Positions 20,909 through 64,000 of a stretch of DNA of 64,000 nucleotides are shown one piece after another. Position numbers and translations under genes: made by a program. Position 1 is the stretch's first letter; every line of letters starts with the position of its first letter. Under the pieces are notes generated by a model that worked only from the letters and a program-made list of their open reading frames with translations, did not search any database and had not been told where the DNA came from. The stretch is from Tetrahymena thermophila SB210 (taxonomy: Eukaryota > Ciliophora > Oligohymenophorea > Hymenostomatida > Tetrahymenidae): the NCBI RefSeq assembly GCF_000189635.1, contig NW_002476452.1, positions 186,001 to 250,000 of the forward strand. The letters run 5' to 3'.

Positions 20909-22381
20909 TGAAATGTATTTCAAAAGAACTATTAGATTAGATGAAATGTTAGCCTTTATTCATTTATTTATTTATAAAATACATTAAAATTTTCAATATG
21001 AACTAACATAAACAATTAGATAAATTAACTAAACATTTTCACATATAAAAGATAATAAATAAATATTTAAAATAATTAATATAATCAAATTAATTAATTA
21101 AAACCTTCTCACTAATAGAAGATCAACAAACAATCAATTGTATAAAATTAATTTAATTTCATCTATTTATATATATAAATTGCCTATAATTAGTAAATAT
21201 TCAAAATAATAAAATTAAAATTCTTAAATATGTATGTATTTTAACTGTTTTTGTAAACAAAAATTTAAGTAAAATAATCACTTTAAATTTTTAACTAAAT
21301 TAAAAAAAAATATTTTTGAGTAATAATACAAATTTAAGAATTATGCTTGTGAACACTCAATAAAAATTTAAGAATTAATTAATTATGTGTTTATAAATTA
21401 TTATTAAATAGATATTAAATAAGAATTATTTTTCATGAATTCATTAAAAATATTATATAGATGAACATAATAAAGAAAGTTTATGATTTTTCTGTTAAAT
21501 TTTTAATTAATTTTAGCCTTTTTAATCTCTTAAAATAAAAAAATTATTTTTCGATAAAAATAGGTCTTAGTTAGTGAGGATTTATATTATTTTGAAATAT
21601 GTTTGTTTTGATGTGAGCTTGTAGTGTCCTATTGAACATTCTAAATTAAATGCTGATTAATATTATTAAAAAGTTAAACTTTTCAAGGATTTTTATTTTT
21701 TAATTTTTCTACTTACCTTTTAGATGTTAAAATGATTTAATATTCAAAAAAAGTTGTAAAATTATTTAATAAATTTCCACTTAAATTAAAGGTTTGTTTA
21801 TAATCAATCTTTAGAAAATGTGAAGGATTTTTTTTTTTTTGTAAATGTAGTTTAAAAATATAATATTTTTAAATGTAAATAAAATATAAATAATGTAATA
21901 TTTTATTTTGTTGAAATTATTTTAATATCACAAACAAACAAACAAAAAAATATTAAATTTGACATAGAAATAAAAATATAAAATTTAATAGAATTGATGA
22001 GCATTTATTTATAGATATTAAATATAATTAATCAGATTTTAGTCTTTAATTTATCTGTTTATTTTTTATATAAATTTGGCAGAAAGTATCAATAATAAAT
22101 AAATAATAGTTACACGAAAAATTAATTTTTTAGAGTAAATAAAGTTAATATTAAATTGAAATTTACATTTACATTTCTTATTTTTTCTATTTGAATAAGT
22201 TAAAAATTGTTCTTAGAATTATAGCAGAATAAATTAAAAATAGAAAACTGTCTAATTTTTCATTTTAAAAGTGGATGGATGCTCATGGTTAGATAATATA
22301 TAAAATTTACAAAAATAAACATTTTTATTAAAAAATAAAGATCGAAATTTCATTTTAAAAATAGATTGATTAAATAAATAA
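20909..22381. other. AT-rich intergenic region
   Basis: About 1.5 kb of very AT-rich DNA upstream of the dioxygenase gene, with no ORF of coding character. It probably includes that gene's promoter. Confidence 0.5.
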
Positions 22382-23206
22382 ATGTCATCTTAAAGTAACA
22401 GAATACCAACAGTATTTGTCTCTCATGGCTTAGTAGGATATACTTTGAGCCCTAATTCCACTGTTTATAAAAGTATGCAAGCGTTTTCATAAAATAATAA
22501 TATCTAGAAAAGGGTAAAGACTGTAATTATTGTATCTGCTCATTGGGAGGAATAATCTCTCACAATAAATTTTAATCCAAAACCAAAAATTGAACATGAT
22601 CATCCAAGCAAATGGCTTTATAAGTACAATTTTAATATGGATACAAATATTGAGTTAGCCAAAAAGATTTATCAAAGTATGATCTAAAACAAAATACCTA
22701 CAAAAATGACAGATTAAGGAAATATAGATCATGGAGCATGGGGTGCATTATATACATTATATAGCCTTGATGAATAATAAAAAGCATTTAATTCTAATTC
22801 AAAATACGCTCCATAAATAGTTTAAGTTAGTCTCCACTCAGGAATGGATTCATCTTTACATTTCTAAATTGGAAAAATACTAGAATAATATAGAGATGAA
22901 GAAACTATGATAGTTTGCAGTGGTTCTACTACTCATTCTTTTACATATATGAGTCATCCTAATTATCCTTCATGGTCAAGAGAATGGGAATAAATACTGC
23001 TTAATGTTCTTACAAACAAAGATGAAAAGAAAAGAGTGGAAGATCTCCTTAAATTAAAATAACTTAAAATATACAACTATGTATAAAGCAGTGACGATCA
23101 TTTTATACCAATACTAGTTGCTGCAGGCACTTCTCCTTATCCAGCACAATATATCAATTTAGAAAAAAATTTTGAGTCAATGTGCTCCTGCTATTCATTC
23201 TAATGA
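22382..23206 (+). CDS. DODA-type extradiol dioxygenase (LigB superfamily)
   Basis: A single exon of 275 codons (274 aa), about the length of plant and bacterial 4,5-DOPA dioxygenase-like proteins. Family signatures in order are VFVSHGL near the N-terminus, IVSAHWEE, HDHPSKWLY, DHGAWGAL, QVSLHSGMD and SGSTTHSFTYM. In LigB enzymes the His residues of SHG, the H-D-H block and the DHG motif bind the Fe(II)/Zn centre that cleaves a catechol ring. The true substrate cannot be read from sequence; many eukaryotic members act on DOPA-like catechols or are orphan. No signal peptide, so probably cytosolic. Immediate neighbours give no pathway clue. Confidence 0.9.
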
Positions 23207-24647
23207 ATTATAAATAATTAAATATATAAATCAATTTTGTTTTCAAATAATTTTGATATAGTTCAAAACCAAAAAAACTAAATGTTCTTTTTTTTGTATT
23301 CATAATTATAAAAGTCTTATTTTAAATTTAATTCGACTTTAAATAAGTCTTAAGTTCAGTCTTTCTAATTCATAACATTGATTCTTAATTTGTTTTTTGA
23401 TTTTATTACCAACCATTATTAATTACTTTTAACGTAATCATTTGAAGGAAAAGTAGAATACCATTATTTTTTATCTAGTTTAGCTTATTAAACATCATTT
23501 TGAAAAATATAGTGTACAGACATAAAAATAAAGGTAGATCCAAACATTAAACTGTATAACATCCTGTATATTCTTTAATTGGAGCTCATAATTTATCATA
23601 ATTAATGAATGATAATTTAACTCATTATTAATAAAAATTATTCAGAAAAAATTTTTCTTTCAAAAATTTTTAATTTCTTAAAATGAATAGAGATGAAAAT
23701 TTCTATCAGAGGAATTATTTAATAAATAAATTTAAAAAAATATTAATAATACCGTATTACTTCTATACTTAAATCCAACTCTTTTTTTACTAGCCCAGCC
23801 ATTTAATACTTAAATATCTCCCATTTTCACCCTACCTCGGTTGACCGGTCGGTGGGTCTTATTGAGGGAATATGGTAATATTTATAATTTAAATATACTC
23901 TAGATTAATATGGATAACTAATGATAATAGATTGAAGAAATTAAAAACTTTTTTATTAAAAAAATAAATTTAAAGAATATTAATAAAAAAATAAATAATT
24001 ACTTCTTCTAATTCACCTAAATAATTAATTTATATAATCATTTATTTTTTTTTTCAAAAATATTTAATATCAATTTATGGAAATTTAATTAATTTTTAAG
24101 GCAATAACTTTATATTTAGATCACTGTTTTTTATTACAATTAATTTTTTTAAATTTAGATTTCATTGATTTTCTAATAAAAATCCTTTTTCACTTAAAAA
24201 TGATTATAGTAATAGATAGCCATAAATAAATAGCCGATCTTACAGTCCCATAGTAAATTTAAACAGTCCAAGGTAACCAACCCATCCCAACCAAAAAACA
24301 TTAGTTTTTATTTAATTTCTTAACATTTGAATAATTTTAACAAATATGAGTGTCTTTTTAATAAAAATAAATGGAAGTCCACATTTTAATGATTAAGATA
24401 AAATTAAAAAATTTTTTCCAAAAATAGTTATTACAAACAATACATGAATACATACATAAATACATAAAGAATTCTAATTTTAATTAGAAATACAGTTTTT
24501 TAATTAATTAATTAATTTTGTGAAGTCTTAGATATTAGGATGTTTTTTAATTAGATTATTAAGTAAATTTTATCTTTTTTTTTGAGTTGTTTAAAGAGTA
24601 GTTTTATTTATTTAATTTTAAAGTGCATTTATCTAAATAATCATGAT
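23207..24647. other. Intergenic region with two GC-richer islands
   Basis: Lies between the convergent dioxygenase and Piwi genes. Two short C/G-rich patches stand out at about 23825-23865 (contains the palindrome GACCGGTC) and 24239-24300 (contains GGTAACCAACCCATCCCAACC). No gene or known element is recognised. Confidence 0.45.
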
Positions 24648-27600
24648 TCAAATATAAAATCTTGAATTGAAAAGCTTTTCTGATACTTCTTCTTAAATAA
24701 AAGTTCCGACCATTTTTGCTAGTTTCTTTGCATATTAAATTTGGGCAGGATATTTTATACTACCACTCCAGTTAACGTAATTGAAGCATTAACTGTATAG
24801 CAACTCTTACAATCTCCCTTCTGGGAATTCAGTTGTGTCATAGATTACTTTATAGTGGACTGGGGTAGCAGTTCCTTGTTTTACGTTTTAGGATATCATA
24901 TAGAAATCATAATGATACTTGCTGGTAATAGAAGAATCAATGATAGTGCCTGGAGGAGGATTTACAAGTTCTTTATTAGGTCCTTCTCCTAGCTAATGCA
25001 ATACACGAACACCATGACGACATTCTAACAAAACTACACAGAGCTTTGGTTTATACTAAGGGGAAAGTACTGTAAATGACTTAAGCACTTCTTTTATTTC
25101 TGTACTCAAGTATTTTTGAATGCCTTAATCAGCAATGTTTTCACGCAAATAAATGATATTTTCAGGTACAAATTTATTTTAAACAAAGTACTACTTAATG
25201 GCGTCAACAATAAAAGTGCTGATTTTTTCAATATTATCTTTATTTAACTTTTAAAATGTGGCACGACTATAGAAACGACTAACATTTTTATCTTGAGAAG
25301 CTACAAAGCCAATAACAAATTGAGGTTGTCCATTAATAAATACCTTTTATACACTTGTTCCAATAATCATTGTGTTGTCTGGTATACCATTAGGAGGATT
25401 TACCACCCACAAAGTAGTTCCGCATTTTGCAGCCATTTAACTTAGAATTGCTGAGCAGACATTGTAAGACTGCTTTGAGTCTAGAGATTGCTAACGAATG
25501 TATTAGGATTTTATTTGTTATGTGATTGTGCACAACTTTTTTATTTTACTATAATTTTGAACTGTAGAGAATTTATTAGGAGCAACTATAGCAACGATGT
25601 CAAATTTTTCTTTCTTGATTTCTCTACGGATGACATGCTCAATTTCTTACATAGCCTTATTATTGAAATCACCTAAATTGAATTCTTGTGGTTTTTTAAC
25701 TTCAATTCTTAGCTCCTTCTAAATTTTAATCCAATTCTTTCATTTTTAAAATAAAAGATTTTAGTAAGATTTAATTAAGAAAAAATAAGACGCCAAAATA
25801 TAATTTTTTATTTAATTTTGAGACAAAAGAATTAATTGGTAAAAAATTAAAGGAAAATATTATATTTATTTATCTAGTTTGTTTACACTAGCCAATCAAT
25901 TCCATTTTAATTAATTAATTAAAAAATTCAATCATATAAATAAAAAAGCTATTTGTTTATTGAAAGCTTAACTTTAATTAATAAATTTTACTTAAAAAAG
26001 ATCCATTGTGTTGAAATCTTTAAAGTGAAGTAGAGCTATGGAGAGCTGATTGCCTGAGCTATAAACAGGGTATTTCATACTAAATTGAGAAGCGCTGTTA
26101 TCTTCGATTGTTTAGCGTGGGGCATCCTTTTTAGGACCACCAAATGTGATGGTAGGATATGCAATTTGTTTGGCTTAGATAACATGAGGATGGTTGCTGA
26201 AGTTGATACCTAGCTGCTCAGATATAGATTATGTATTTAGCTAACCTTCTGTGGTATTGACATTCACTATTTTATCTATAAATTATGTCACCATATTGTA
26301 TAATTCTTATGGTTTTTGTTTGGTACAGGTAATCAATTCTCTCTTTTAATAATCATTGAGCTCATCTGGTATACCTGTGAGTAAGCATAATTCAGGAACG
26401 AAATAGAGGAATCTCTTAAGTTTCTTTTCATAAACTAAAAGAAGAGGTTATTTATCATATTTAATTTTAAGACCATATTTTTTATAGTAGTAGTCATAAA
26501 TTGTTAAATCTGAATCAGGATTAGGTTATTGCAGAGTAGGTGGTTCTATTGGTAGCTATGATTCTTTGGAATTAGGATCTAAAATAGGATCTGATACTTT
26601 TAATTCTTTGCAATTTTTATCAAAAATTACATCATGAACTTTAAATTGCTTAAAGTTGCCATAATTAGCCATTACAGTTTGTCCTTGCAACTTTTCACAA
26701 ACTAACTTACGCTTTTACTCTTTAGATGCATCATTATTGTTTTTATAAATTAAATTTATGTAATTCAAAGCATTTTCTCTTCTGGCAACTTTATGTTAAA
26801 TATCCAGCTTCATAAGTAGGCCGTCACTACAATTTTCAAAAGGAGTATTCCATCCCTTGTAAACTATTAAATTAGTACCTTCTATTTTTGAATGATACTC
26901 AGCTGAGGGTTCAAAATATTTTGTATTCTTTCCAAATTCAAAGAAATTTAATCCTTTGAGTATATTCTTTACCATGACATTAAAGAAAAGGAGAGGGAAT
27001 TAGCTTTTTCTTTAATTTTCATTGTTCAAATCCTCTAATCTAAATACCTAAATTTTTTATAGTAGTAAAAATTTTTAAATTAAATTTAATTTTAATAAAA
27101 ATTTTTAGTAATTCAGATTTAATTAACTTTGATAGCTAAATTTATTTATTTTATTATTTATTCCTTTTTATCTTTATTTCGTAAAAATAAAATCTGCTTT
27201 AAATATTGATTTCTTTATTTTTTTCTAACTAAATTTTAGTATTTTTACAATCAACTAACAAATTAAATAATTAAAAACTATTTGCTTTGAAGAAGGCTGG
27301 TAGTTTATAATAAAGTTTAATCCCCACGTATCACACACATTTGATCTAATCTAATAGTAAAATCTAAACTATTTATAAAAAAATTATTTCACATAATTAT
27401 GAGACTGACTGTGTTTGTCTCATATTTAAGTTATTTATAAATCTAACTCTGCATTTTATGGAATTTCTGCTTCTTTAAATTTTATTTGTAAGACAATCTG
27501 GGAAAAATCAATTTTATTCTAAAATATTGCATGGTTATTTGGTAAATACCTTTGTGATTTTCAAGTTAACTTGGTAATCAGTTTTCTGAAAAGTTATTGA

Positions 27601-28117
27601 GATTGATGTTTCTTTATTAAAATTAGGCTTTTCGACAGAAAAGATCTATTGAGCATTAATTAAATAATGCCCTCCCAAACATTCCTTTAACTAAGCTCTG
27701 CTGACACTCAATAATTTATCTCTCAAAACTCTATTATCAGCTTCAATTCTAGGATAAAAATCCACTCTTAGTAAGTAGATTTCCTCAATACTTTTATTTA
27801 ATTCTAATTTTAAATAATTTGTGAGGAGCATAAGTGACTTAGACTGCTAATTGTAATCTAACTTGGGTCTTCTTGCTAATTAAAGCTTATTATTTTAAGA
27901 AAATATTGGTTTTTTACATATTAATATTGCCAATTATATAATAATGATATAATAGTATGATAAGAAGTGGATCTATTTCTCATCAAAAAATTGACTGTCA
28001 TCCATCAATAGCTTAATTATACTATTCTTTATTGCATATAAATTCAATTACTTTCTGTTCCTTCTGCTGGCTCGAAGATCCTTGTTCACTTTCACCTCTT
28101 AAACTTCCTTGATCCAT
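24648..28117 (-). CDS. Piwi-clade Argonaute with altered catalytic residues
   Basis: Four exons in gene order (28052-28117, 27550-27885, 25992-27047, 24648-25736) give 849 codons, 848 aa. Domain order: a short polar N-terminus; N domain (RVDFYPRIEADNRVLRDK); linker (FFNVMVKNILKGLNFFEFGK); PAZ (TNLIVYKGWNTPF through SDLTIYDYYYKKYGL and LYFVPELCLLTGIPDEL); MID (IKKLCTITQQI, QMAAKCGTTLWVVN); and PIWI (TMIIGTSV, GFVASQDKNVSRFYSRATF, NPPPGTIIDSSITS, YDFYMISQ, QGTATPVHYKV). The C-terminus ends FNSRFYI, like other Piwi proteins. Tetrahymena has a family of TWI proteins; which one this is I cannot say. The expected DDH triad reads Ser (codon 25353-25355), Glu (25140-25142) and His (24855-24857), so slicing is probably lost. 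Intron 27048-27549 is unusually long and contains a coding-like tract (27430-27520). Confidence 0.93.
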
Positions 28118-30824: not shown

Positions 30825-32085
30825 TTTAAATAATTTGTTGAATATATATCGAATTAAATTTTAGTAGTAGTTTCTGATTTTATTAAAACAACCAATTAAT
30901 TAATCAATAGATCAATCAATCTACATAATTTTCAATCAAATAAATCCTCTAAATGCAAAAAGAGTAATTATTTATTATTTTATTACTTTTCAAACTATTA
31001 AAAAATTAGTCACTCACTTTTAACAAAAAATTTGTTAGGAAGGACACAAGTAAAAATACTTTTAAAGACATTTTTTAAATCATAAAAAGAAAGATAGATC
31101 TACTTCAAATGAATTTTTACATAAATAAAATTATCATATCATTCATTTTGTATTTATTTTAAATGAAATAAATCAATATTAAAATTAAAGAAGTACAAGC
31201 AGCAATTTGTTGATTAATTGATCTAACATAAAAAGCATATGTTAATTAAAAAAAATTTATTTTATGTAGTTATTTTAGAATCATACATCTTATTAGATTA
31301 TTTTAATCAGTTAACAATATTATAGTAAAATTAACTATTATTGTAAAAAAAAAAACTAAATTACTCTAAATTTTTTATTCAAATATTTATGAATGTAATT
31401 TAATTGAGGCAAAAATTTATAAATTTTCACAATATATTTCAGAGAATATTATACACATATACATTTATTTATTTATATATATATATATTGAAAAATTAAA
31501 CAAAATAAATTAAATATATAAACAAATAAAAAAAGAATATTTTTGAAATTAATTTCTTTTAATTAACGTTTAAAACTTTGATAATGAGATTTATTTGTTT
31601 TGATTTAGTGATTAAATTTTTTAGAGTGAGTAATTTTAATATTTAAATATATTGTTTTAACAAATATGTAGAAATAAGATATTCTAAGTTTGATAAATTT
31701 GATATAGATTGATAGATAGATACTAGCACTTTTAAAACTAAATTTATAATTGTGAATGATTGGATAATAAAAAAGATTTTTAACTGTAAAATACATTTAA
31801 AATTTAAGGGACTTAGTAATTCAAAGACATTCTTTATAGATACTTTGTATACTAATTATAAATGTGTTGATTTATTTATTTAATAGTCCATGCTACTTAC
31901 TTGGTATTGATCTATCAAAGAACATAAAAATGAATGCTGCAATGATCAATATAAAAAATATAATATTGTTTTTAATACTGAATAGCAAGCAAGCAAACAA
32001 AAATAGTAAAGAAAATTAAGCAGAAACTAAGAAAGAAATTTAGTGTAATTAAAGCAAAAATAATTAATTAAATACAGATAATACT
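30825..32085. other. Intergenic region between divergent genes
   Basis: AT-rich, probably holding both promoters. From 31930 the frame of the bromodomain gene is already open, so its start could lie upstream of 32086. Nothing else is identified. Confidence 0.45.
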
Positions 32086-33638
32086 ATGAAAAGCAATACT
32101 ACCAAGGAAAAGGCGCCAAAAACAGAAGCAACAAAAACTAAGTTAGACAGAGAACTAATTAAGAAGCTTCATAAAATTTTAAATAACTTAATAAATGATC
32201 CCGAATCTGGCGAATTCAGGAAGCCTGTTTACTATAAAGCTCTTGGATTAGAAGATTATAAAAAGATTATAAAGAAGCCAATGGATTTAAATAGTGTTCG
32301 CAGAAATTTGAACAAAAATTCATATGAGTTTCTTGAAGAGGTTCTTGATGATATATAATTAGTTTGGAATAATTGCAAGTTATACAACGAGCAAGGATCA
32401 GTAAATGATAAATTAATTTTAACTGGATTCGTTATTTTAAAAATAATTTTTTTCTATGCATTTGTTAAAAGTGTTGAAAATGCATTCGTGATCAGCTATA
32501 AACTTCAAATAAACTTAATTTTTTTGCTTTAAGTATTATTTTTTAAATAAAAAAGTGGATTTATTTAACTGCAGTCAAGCTTGAAACGTTTTTCCATGAC
32601 CAATGTTTAGAGTAATTCCCAAACACACCTCTGCCTAGCAACAAAATACGTATAAAATTGAATTTATCAGTCTTTTAATTATTTATTTAGAAGCTAACTT
32701 TAAATTAATTGCTAAATTATAAATCTACAAAGAATAAATGAAGAGAATATCTTTTTTGTAATTCTAACATTAATGATAATTCTAATTTATATTTGTTGAA
32801 AAACGAATGAAAATTTTATTTAAATTTATTATAGCCGATAGAGCCCTCCTATTATAGTAATATAACGAGAAGAGCAATAAACAAAAGTAATCTCAGTCTA
32901 ATAAAGATTAAACTAATGAAGAAGAATAAAAAGGAGCTTCAAACACTTTGCCTCTACCAAAATTGGCAAATCAAAGTTCAAATACATCAACTTCTAATCC
33001 TTAAACTATTGCTCAGTCTTTGATTACAACATAATCTGAGTTTAACCAAAATAAGCAATCTCAAAATGGAAATAATTCAGCTTAAGCATCTCTTACTGCA
33101 GCTAATCAATCAAAGACTACAAATATTGATCTGCCTTTTAAATTTACTAAAAAAGGTATAAAAAGAATATCATAAAAATAAGTTGTTCATATACCTTTTA
33201 TGAAATTTGCTAATGATAAATAAAAATTTGATTAGCTTATACAGACTACCAAAGCAGTCTCTAAGCTTTTAACAAACCAACAAAAGCAAGTAAATAAATA
33301 AATAAAATTAAAAAATTGGATTATAAATCATTTTTAATAAACAGATAATAGATATAATTCAAGAGTTTTAGCCTTCAATTATACAAACAGTAAAATTTTT
33401 GAAAGTAATTTAACTCTTATATAGATCATTTTTTTAAAAATAAAAGGATGAAAATGAAGTTAAAAATGTTGATTTTAATTAAGTGTCAGAGTATACCTAT
33501 GAATTGATAACTTCCTATCTGAATTTACTTAAAAATCAAGAATCAAGTGAATAAGTAATGGAAATAGAATCTGATGATGAAAATAATATTGAGATACTAA
33601 ATAACTAGCAATCAAACAATGTATCTTTAAACGTATGA
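32086..33638 (+). CDS. BET-like protein: bromodomain plus NET domain
   Basis: The first exon (32086-32400) encodes most of a bromodomain: FRKPVYYKALGLEDYKKIIK, PMDLNSVRRNLN, LDDIQLVWNNCKLYNEQGS, including the conserved Asn of the YN pair that contacts acetyl-lysine. A downstream exon from about 32835 opens with DRALLLQQYNEK, which suits the last bromodomain helix, then a Ser/Gln/Asn linker to 33289. After introns 33290-33344 and 33405-33446, exons 33345-33404 and 33447-33638 carry IIDIIQEFQPSI and EVKNVDFNQVSEYTYELI, resembling the extraterminal (NET) domain of BET proteins. The tail is acidic and ends at TGA. BET proteins read acetylated histones. The splice between 32400 and 32835 is unresolved, because a simple join is out of phase and a small exon may be missed. 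An upstream in-frame ATG at 31930 is an alternative start. Confidence 0.85.
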
Positions 33639-58697: not shown

Positions 58698-58817
58698 GTT
58701 GTCGGCCATACTAAGGTGAAAACACCGGATCCCATTCGAACTCCGAAGTTAAGCGCCTTAAGGCTGGGTTAGTACTAAGGTGGGGGACCGCTTGGGAAGT
58801 CCCAGTGTCGACAACCT
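58698..58817 (+). rRNA. 5S rRNA, copy 1
   Basis: A 120-nt 5S rRNA gene starting GTTGTCGGCCATAC and ending GTCGACAACCT. The terminal stem GTTGTCG/CGACAAC pairs, and the internal control region is intact. A T-run directly after the end serves as the RNA polymerase III terminator. Identical to the other five copies as far as I can compare. Confidence 0.98.
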
Positions 58818-58972
58818 TTTTTTTAAAATTAATTTATTACTTATAATTAAAAAAGATTAAATTGTTAGTATATTATATTATTTTGCTTTTGTAAAATTGT
58901 CTATTTATTTAATTTCATCTCTTAAATAATAATATTAAAGAAATATAATTACTAAATAATATCATCAATTTT

Positions 58973-59092
58973 GTTGTCGGCCATACTAAGGTGAAAACAC
59001 CGGATCCCATTCGAACTCCGAAGTTAAGCGCCTTAAGGCTGGGTTAGTACTAAGGTGGGGGACCGCTTGGGAAGTCCCAGTGTCGACAACCT
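58973..59092 (+). rRNA. 5S rRNA, copy 2
   Basis: Second tandem copy, same 120-nt sequence, starting 275 bp after copy 1. Preceded by ATCATCAATTTT, shared with copy 4; followed by a T-run. Confidence 0.98.
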
Positions 59093-59262
59093 TTTTTTAA
59101 AAATTAATTTATTATTTGTAAAGATTAAATTTGTTTGTTTGTATATTATTTTTTTGCAACACTAAAATTTTCTATTTAAAGACATCTCTTAAATAATAGT
59201 ATTACTGAAATAGATTGTAGTTACTAAGTTAGTTTTAATTACAAAATAATATTATCAATTTT

Positions 59263-59382
59263 GTTGTCGGCCATACTAAGGTGAAAACACCGGATCCCAT
59301 TCGAACTCCGAAGTTAAGCGCCTTAAGGCTGGGTTAGTACTAAGGTGGGGGACCGCTTGGGAAGTCCCAGTGTCGACAACCT
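59263..59382 (+). rRNA. 5S rRNA, copy 3
   Basis: Third tandem copy, same sequence, 290 bp after copy 2. T-run terminator follows. Confidence 0.98.
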
Positions 59383-59552
59383 TTTTTTAAAATTAATTTA
59401 TTAGTTATTATTTGAAAATATTAATTTATTAGTATATTATTTTATTTTGTTTTTCTTAATTGTATATTCAATGTCAGCTTAAAGTAAAAATATTAAACAA
59501 ATAAGTTGTAGTTACTTAGTTATTTTAATTACTAAATAATATCATCAATTTT

Positions 59553-59672
59553 GTTGTCGGCCATACTAAGGTGAAAACACCGGATCCCATTCGAACTCCG
59601 AAGTTAAGCGCCTTAAGGCTGGGTTAGTACTAAGGTGGGGGACCGCTTGGGAAGTCCCAGTGTCGACAACCT
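59553..59672 (+). rRNA. 5S rRNA, copy 4
   Basis: Fourth tandem copy, same sequence, 290 bp after copy 3, with a longer T-run (nine T after CC). Confidence 0.98.
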
Positions 59673-59823
59673 TTTTTTTTAAATTAATTTATTATTTTTA
59701 AAGATTAAATTTGTTTGTTTGTAAATTATTTTTTTGCAACACTAAAATTTTCTATTTAAAGTCATCTCTTAAATAATAGTATTACTAAGTTAGTTTTAAT
59801 TACAAAATAGTATTATCTATTTT

Positions 59824-59943
59824 GTTGTCGGCCATACTAAGGTGAAAACACCGGATCCCATTCGAACTCCGAAGTTAAGCGCCTTAAGGCTGGGTTAGTA
59901 CTAAGGTGGGGGACCGCTTGGGAAGTCCCAGTGTCGACAACCT
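59824..59943 (+). rRNA. 5S rRNA, copy 5
   Basis: Fifth tandem copy, same sequence, 271 bp after copy 4. T-run terminator follows. Confidence 0.98.
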
Positions 59944-60107
59944 TTTTTTAAAAATAAATTTATTACTTATTATTTGAAAAGATTAATTTATTAGAATATT
60001 ATATTATTTTGCTTTTGTGTAATTTTCTATCTATCCTTATATTGAAATAGGTATTAATAACTTAGTTAGTTTATTGATTTTAATTAATAAACAATTTAAT
60101 GAATTTT

Positions 60108-60227
60108 GTTGTCGGCCATACTAAGGTGAAAACACCGGATCCCATTCGAACTCCGAAGTTAAGCGCCTTAAGGCTGGGTTAGTACTAAGGTGGGGGACCG
60201 CTTGGGAAGTCCCAGTGTCGACAACCT
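60108..60227 (+). rRNA. 5S rRNA, copy 6
   Basis: Sixth and last copy, 284 bp after copy 5. The T-run after it is short (TTTTTT with an A following), and the downstream spacer no longer resembles the array spacers. Confidence 0.98.
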
Positions 60228-62790: not shown

Positions 62791-62861
62791 GGAGACTTAG
62801 CTCAATGGTAGAGCGCTGGACTCCAAATCCAGCGGTTGCGTGTTCGATTCACGTAGTCTTC
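62791..62861 (+). tRNA. tRNA-Trp (CCA), copy 1
   Basis: A 71-nt cloverleaf. The acceptor GGAGACT/AGTCTTC pairs (one G-T). The D arm has a shorter loop than the other copies. Anticodon loop CTCCAAA gives anticodon CCA, reading UGG Trp. The anticodon stem is CTGGA/TCCAG, compared with TTGGA/TCCAA in the rest: a compensatory base-pair change. A T-rich stretch follows. No CCA end and no intron. Confidence 0.95.
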
Positions 62862-63088
62862 AAATTTTTATTCATAGTGAAAGTTTTTGTAATTTGTCTT
62901 AGAATATTAGAATATTTAATATGTTGTAATTTTCATTCCTTTTTTGACTATATTAGTGATGGTAGGTAATCTAATAGCAAGGACAACTTTATTGCTTAAA
63001 TATAATTTTTAAAAATTGAAGGGTTTTCAAAATTTCTTTAACTTCCTTTACAAAAGTCGCAAATTTTCAAAAACTTTATAATACACAA

Positions 63089-63160
63089 GGAGACTTAGCT
63101 CAAGTGGTAGAGCGTTGGACTCCAAATCCAACGGTTGCGTGTTCGAGTCACGTAGTCTTC
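63089..63160 (+). tRNA. tRNA-Trp (CCA), copy 2
   Basis: A 72-nt cloverleaf with anticodon CCA and D loop CAAGTGGTAG. Preceded by CACAA and followed by AATTTTTT. Confidence 0.96.
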
Positions 63161-63419
63161 AATTTTTTCAAGTCTTTTATTGATTGAATCTTTTGTAATT
63201 TTACTTTAATGGTACAAATTCCATTTCAAATAAAAATAAAACAAATTAATTTTAAAACTAAAAACAAAAAATTCAGATAAATTTTTTACTTGATTGGTTG
63301 AAGTATTCCAAAAAGTTAAAAATAATTGATTTAATTGAATCTTGAATTAAAATTTAATAAATTAATTTTTTAATTTTATGATTGTAGTTCCAAAATAAAG
63401 TAAAACACCTATCATATAA

Positions 63420-63491
63420 GGAGACTTAGCTCAAATGGTAGAGCGTTGGACTCCAAATCCAACGGTTGCGTGTTCGAGTCACATAGTCTTC
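63420..63491 (+). tRNA. tRNA-Trp (CCA), copy 3, T-stem mismatch
   Basis: A 72-nt cloverleaf with anticodon CCA. The T-arm 3' side reads CACAT instead of CACGT, which breaks a C-G pair in the T stem. It could still be functional or could be a decaying copy. Confidence 0.9.
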
Positions 63492-63597
63492 AATTTTTTC
63501 ATAATTAAAATACTCCAATAAATTATAAAATAAATGATTGAATTTAACCCAAAAGTAAAATTTTCTAAAAAAATTTAAAATAGTTTAAAAAATAAAA

Positions 63598-63669
63598 GGA
63601 GACTTAGCTCAAATGGTAGAGCGTTGGACTCCAAATCCAACGGTTGCGTGTTCGAGTCACGTAGTCTTC
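63598..63669 (+). tRNA. tRNA-Trp (CCA), copy 4
   Basis: A 72-nt cloverleaf with anticodon CCA, intact arms, and the D loop CAAATGGTAG of copy 3. Spacer to copy 3 is only 106 nt. Confidence 0.96.
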
Positions 63670-63945
63670 AATTTTTAGACAATTTTTATTTATTTATTTA
63701 ATTTTAGATTTAAATTTGAAATTAGATTGAATTAAATTATTTTTAAATCTCTTTACTAAAAAAAAGTAATAAGAGTTAATGAACATGAAAATGGTTAGAA
63801 TAATTTTTTTAGAATGATAAATATTTTTTAAAAGTTTTATGACAAATAAATTAAATAGATAGATTCAATAAAGGTTTTAAAAATATGGTCTCTTGTTAAA
63901 TTTGATTATTAAAGTTGGAGTTTTAAAATAATTTAAAATACAAAA

Positions 63946-64000
63946 GGAGACTTAGCTCAAGTGGTAGAGCGTTGGACTCCAAATCCAACGGTTGCGTGTT
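63946..64000 (+). tRNA. tRNA-Trp (CCA), copy 5, cut by window end
   Basis: The first 55 nt match copy 2, through the anticodon stem and into the T arm. The gene continues past the right edge, so the array may hold more copies. Confidence 0.93.

Follow-up and report, generated by a model that had tools for sequence, protein, structure and literature searches.

A Tetrahymena thermophila TWI-family Piwi gene with an altered catalytic tetrad and a predicted non-slicing product

The Piwi gene and its surroundings

The window, the whole 64,000-nucleotide stretch of Tetrahymena thermophila DNA that we analyzed, carries a Piwi gene on the minus strand at 24651-28117. In the ciliate code, which fits the long genes of this genome, the gene was modeled as four exons encoding 829 amino acids (Table 1). 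The reading frame and similarity to Piwi proteins guided the choice of splice sites; the 5' end of exon 3 represents one choice out of several phase-0 AG acceptors, the acceptor of the first intron was picked by eye, and exon 1 is a prediction only and the least certain of the four. The coding sequence has a GC content of 31%, compared with 16–22% in the introns. In Pfam searches (cut-offs of 28.9 bits for Piwi and 28.8 bits for PAZ), the two main reading frames scored 190.1 bits for Piwi and 50.5 bits for PAZ (186.6 and 49.7 bits in a later search), and exon 2 gave no Pfam match. Its PAZ and PIWI domains place the protein in the PIWI/Argonaute family.

Table 1. Features of the window discussed in the text (positions count from the first nucleotide of the window)
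Feature	Position	Strand	Description
LigB-type ring-opening dioxygenase ORF	22370-23203	+	Pfam, 100.6 bits
Repeated element	23819-23882	+	~62 nt, GC-richer, sharply bounded
Piwi stop codon	24648-24650	-	TGA; gene model
Piwi exon 4	24651..25718	-	MID part, PIWI domain and C-terminus FYI; model, Pfam Piwi on ORF
His761	24855..24857	-	CAC; catalytic His kept; alignment to solved Piwis and paralogues
Glu666	25140..25142	-	GAA; replaces second catalytic Asp; alignment to solved Piwis and paralogues
Asp634	25236..25238	-	GAT; replaces glutamate finger; alignment to solved Piwis and paralogues
Ser595	25353..25355	-	AGT; replaces first catalytic Asp; alignment to solved Piwis and paralogues
Piwi intron	25719-25991	-	273 nt, phase 0, GT-AG; ends GTAAAATT...AAATTTAG
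Piwi exon 3	25992..27047	-	PAZ domain and linkers; Pfam and model
Piwi intron	27048-27549	-	502 nt, phase 0, GT-AG; ends GTATTTAC...AAATTTAG
Piwi exon 2	27550..27846	-	N-terminal region; model
Piwi intron	27847-28051	-	205 nt, phase 0, GT-AG
Piwi exon 1 (predicted)	28052..28117	-	ATG start and 22 residues (MDQGSLRGESEQ...)
Bromodomain protein ORF	31756-32658	+	Pfam, 72.1 bits
5S rRNA genes	58698-60226	+	six in tandem, 117.2 bits each
tRNA genes	62791-64000	+	four consecutive tRNA-Trp(CCA) and a fifth tRNA match truncated where the window ends

Twenty neighboring reading frames, surveyed with Pfam, yielded no named gene by which the locus could be placed, and PDB searches with two of the neighboring frames were both empty. 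The LigB-type and Piwi genes flank a short repeated element, of which the window copy and at least nine others (86–92% identity) were found on nine contigs in all and in both orientations; a 26-base pattern allowing up to two mismatches gave 9 matches, compared with 0 for the reversed control. No Rfam family was identified for the element (the single match, E 0.58, fell far below the gathering score). A stem is possible, with compensatory changes absent, and the window copy folded no better than shuffled sequences (z -1.05).

Catalytic site and guide-binding pocket

The catalytic columns were compared by sequence alignment to solved chains rather than by predicted structure; a single-sequence AlphaFold2 model of the PIWI exon had a mean pLDDT of 34.7 and was left out of any fold search. 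The closest solved structures are Piwis, namely sponge Piwi-A (177 bits) and PIWIL1 (152 bits). Where slicing Piwis carry Asp-Glu-Asp-His, the protein has Ser595-Asp634-Glu666-His761, so that three of the four residues are changed and the site departs from the Asp-Glu-Asp-His/Asp tetrad of slicing Argonautes. All four columns align without gaps. The first Asp column falls in TMIIGTSV (MVVGIDV in the sponge protein, MIVGIDC in PIWIL1), and the glutamate finger is replaced by Asp in KDNIEK (QELIHE and QELVDG, respectively). The second Asp is replaced by Glu in IIYLRENI (IIVFRDGV and VIVYRDGV), and the His is retained in PVHYKV (PTHYNV in PIWIL1). Sponge Piwi-A (PDB 7kx7, 7yfq), the top solved-structure match to the protein, differs from it in that neither Asp nor the glutamate finger is replaced. 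The sponge chains 7yfq_A, 7kx7_A and 9iiy_A as printed read SPTYYRV, compared with SPTHYNV in PIWIL1, with a Tyr in the catalytic His column.

A sequence-only reading of this DNA had described a Piwi protein with Ser-Glu-His in place of the Asp-Asp-His triad at 24855..25355. The altered site is confirmed, and the ends of that interval are exactly the His761 and Ser595 codons. The ungapped alignments bear out both the replacement of the first Asp by Ser and the retention of the final His, and among the solved Piwis and the TWI paralogues they place an intact Asp of this protein at neither position. The three residues named were therefore right, but the glutamate finger, also changed, had been overlooked. 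At the second Asp the substitution by Glu holds, whereas the extra Leu proposed there does not: YRDGV and LRENI align without a gap, which rules out an insertion and leaves a Tyr-to-Leu change instead.

Ser595 is not a one-base error, since converting AGT to either Asp codon requires at least two base changes. We also considered a splice form that would restore an Asp at this position. None was seen, because Ser595 starts 363 nt into the 1068-nt exon and Asp587 is the sole acidic residue between residues 580 and 611.

In human AGO2 and in Piwi structures, a pocket of Tyr, Lys, Gln, Gln and Lys grips the 5' phosphate of the guide. All five residues are kept here (Y529, K533, Q545, Q567 and K571), in columns that are invariant in the four references. 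Among the 64 reference-invariant columns as a whole, the protein keeps 38, compared with 26–42 in the ten other paralogues lacking the tetrad (four references). In this respect it is unremarkable among these paralogues, and much of the remainder has diverged.

The Piwi family of the genome

Profile searches covered the 101-Mb, 445-contig genome, taken to be the somatic genome of T. thermophila since a 159-nt Tetrahymena telomerase RNA matches it at 159 of 159 positions. The Piwi profile gave 13 matches at 11 loci, with locus C173 split into three pieces, and the PAZ profile recovered the same 11 loci plus C114 above the cut-off; a sub-threshold PAZ match at C37 (17.3 bits) was excluded from the count. 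The resulting 12 Piwi loci, one of them the gene described here (C99), equal the published number, as T. thermophila is reported to have twelve PAZ/PIWI proteins (PMC6562869). The gene is accordingly a member of the TWI family. No relatives outside this genome were confirmed in the bacterial and archaeal genome contigs or viral contigs scanned.

Only one of the 12 loci, C173, has a complete tetrad (D-E-D-H). It is absent from the other 11 in several ways: E-T-Q-K in the five tandem C125 copies, E-I-Q-K in C200, E-K-Q-K in C9, A-G-Q-R in C434, D-Q-Q-M in C65, S-D-E-H in C99 and S-S-D-L in the very divergent C114, whose tetrad reading is uncertain and which alone lacks the pocket Gln. The rarity that the sequence-only reading had implied for a broken site was thus mistaken. 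Its statement that relatives read TMIIGxDV also fails for the nearest ones, which have TMIIGIETS (all five C125 copies), GIETS (C200 and C9) and AIAVE (C434). The C434, C65 and C173 proteins were joined by hand across introns, with C65 incomplete (581 amino acids), and several paralogue rows of the alignment include unspliced upstream sequence; the tree and the tetrads were therefore based on the MID-PIWI part alone.

In the spliced model of C173 the first catalytic Asp is residue 526, and Twi1 D526N is reported to be without Slicer activity (PMC4331008), which identifies C173 as TWI1. Ser595 occupies this same column, so the column changed here is one whose change abolishes slicing. Twi1 shares its domains and pocket with the C99 protein but retains the full tetrad and slices the passenger strand, according to published accounts.

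Trees of the MID-PIWI part took in three animal Piwis. C99 was sister to the C125/C200/C9/C434 group with support of 99/95, and of 98/96 in a reduced tree that left out C114 (branch length 3.08) and the near-identical C125b, C125c and C125e. C65 grouped with C173/TWI1 (90/84 in the full tree, 100/99 in the reduced tree). From this position as sister of TWI1 and from its lost tetrad, C65 is probably TWI11, whose slicer core is reported to be missing (PMC5666084). C65 resembles the C99 protein in this respect but differs from it in being the sister of TWI1 and in keeping the first Asp, with the other tetrad residues lost.

All three acidic tetrad residues are present in TWI1 and in the three animal Piwis, so the tetrad would have been lost at least twice if there was no regain, once on the side of C99 and once in C65, and perhaps a third time in C114. 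The tandem C125 copies, which we take to be TWI2-6, belong to the clade nearest to C99 (with C200, C9 and C434) and are likewise non-catalytic with the same 5'-phosphate pocket. However, they share none of the four tetrad residues with C99, and their identity to it over MID-PIWI is 32.7–34.0%. The lack of any tetrad residue in common with the sister group suggests that the site decayed or was remodeled separately in C99. Among the five C125 copies, dN/dS was 0.05–0.12 (10 pairs, last 320 codons), indicating strong purifying selection. These values show that a non-catalytic Piwi can be strongly constrained in this genome.

Identity and possible function of the protein

Taken together, these data make it very probable that the gene is one of the twelve TWI genes and encodes a PIWI-clade Argonaute that binds small RNA and is unable to slice, its predicted metal-binding site being broken. 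The sequence-only reading had proposed a guide-binding, non-cleaving Piwi, and that proposal is well supported by the three changed tetrad residues, by the D526N column, and by the retained pocket and PAZ domain; the roles it suggested, in chromatin targeting, RNA processing or small-RNA stability, are candidate ones. Such a protein would take up guide RNA that is single-stranded or has been passively unwound, and would most likely act by recruiting or stabilizing partners without cleavage, as published for Twi12. Twi12 belongs to the same genome and family and is described as lacking slicer activity (PMC4383946); here it is likened to the C99 protein by description, not by sequence. It is described as carrying tRNA 3' fragments and as stabilizing, localizing and stimulating Xrn2 (PMC10511037, PMC4307339, PMC3855497, PMC7599909), and accounts of it report that it is essential for growth and that a Twi12-Xrn2-Tan1 complex supports rRNA processing. 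For Twi11, a longer stay on chromatin has been suggested in a review.

Which TWI gene this is can be narrowed by name. With C125 taken as TWI2-6, C173 as TWI1 and C65 as the putative TWI11, five names are left for the five loci C200, C9, C434, C114 and C99, so C99 is probably TWI7, 8, 9, 10 or 12. As a special case of the non-slicing reading, C99 may be TWI12 itself, a leading candidate, although we hold this assignment only tentatively. Twi12 is a reported non-slicer, and the identity of C99 to sponge Piwi (34.0%) is the second highest of the 12 loci, between TWI1 (35.0%) and the next (31.3%). Against this, non-slicer status does not single out TWI12, and codon use neither sets C99 apart nor indicates its TWI identity. 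No paper searched gave TWI12 together with a TTHERM number, and of six TTHERM numbers looked for, only that of TWI1 turned up in the literature searched.

A different account holds that C99 is a little-studied TWI other than Twi12, whose Ser-Asp-Glu-His site is kept for a purpose, as a one-metal or metal-free clamp with a long hold on guide-target duplexes, marking nascent RNA or storing guides. We regard this as improbable; if it were true, slicing would have been abandoned at least twice in one genome, with Twi1 the sole slicer left. Asp634, Glu666 and His761 could also bind metal and confer trace activity. In the stronger form of this idea, a weak or altered nuclease, these residues would hold one metal and cleave slowly, and two carboxylates, swapped in length, and the His do remain. 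It is nevertheless very unlikely, as the first Asp, whose change stops slicing in Twi1, is Ser, with no acidic residue but Asp587 in its vicinity (residues 580–611). Least probable of all is a decaying pseudogene, which the lost tetrad would fit and which we rejected given the 829-codon frame open across three phase-0 GT-AG introns in the model, the GC contrast between exons and introns, the Piwi domain score of 187–190 bits and the intact pocket.

The family of twelve genes and its non-slicing members are already in print, and the feature is ordinary within the family. No statement on the tetrad of this particular protein was found in the literature searched, which excluded the primary TWI12 papers. 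The distribution of tetrads points to loss of slicing as the norm rather than the exception among Tetrahymena Piwi proteins, with Twi1 alone predicted to slice. Most of the cell's Piwi complexes would then have to load guides and act without cleavage, which would make Tetrahymena a convenient system for studying Piwi function free of slicing.
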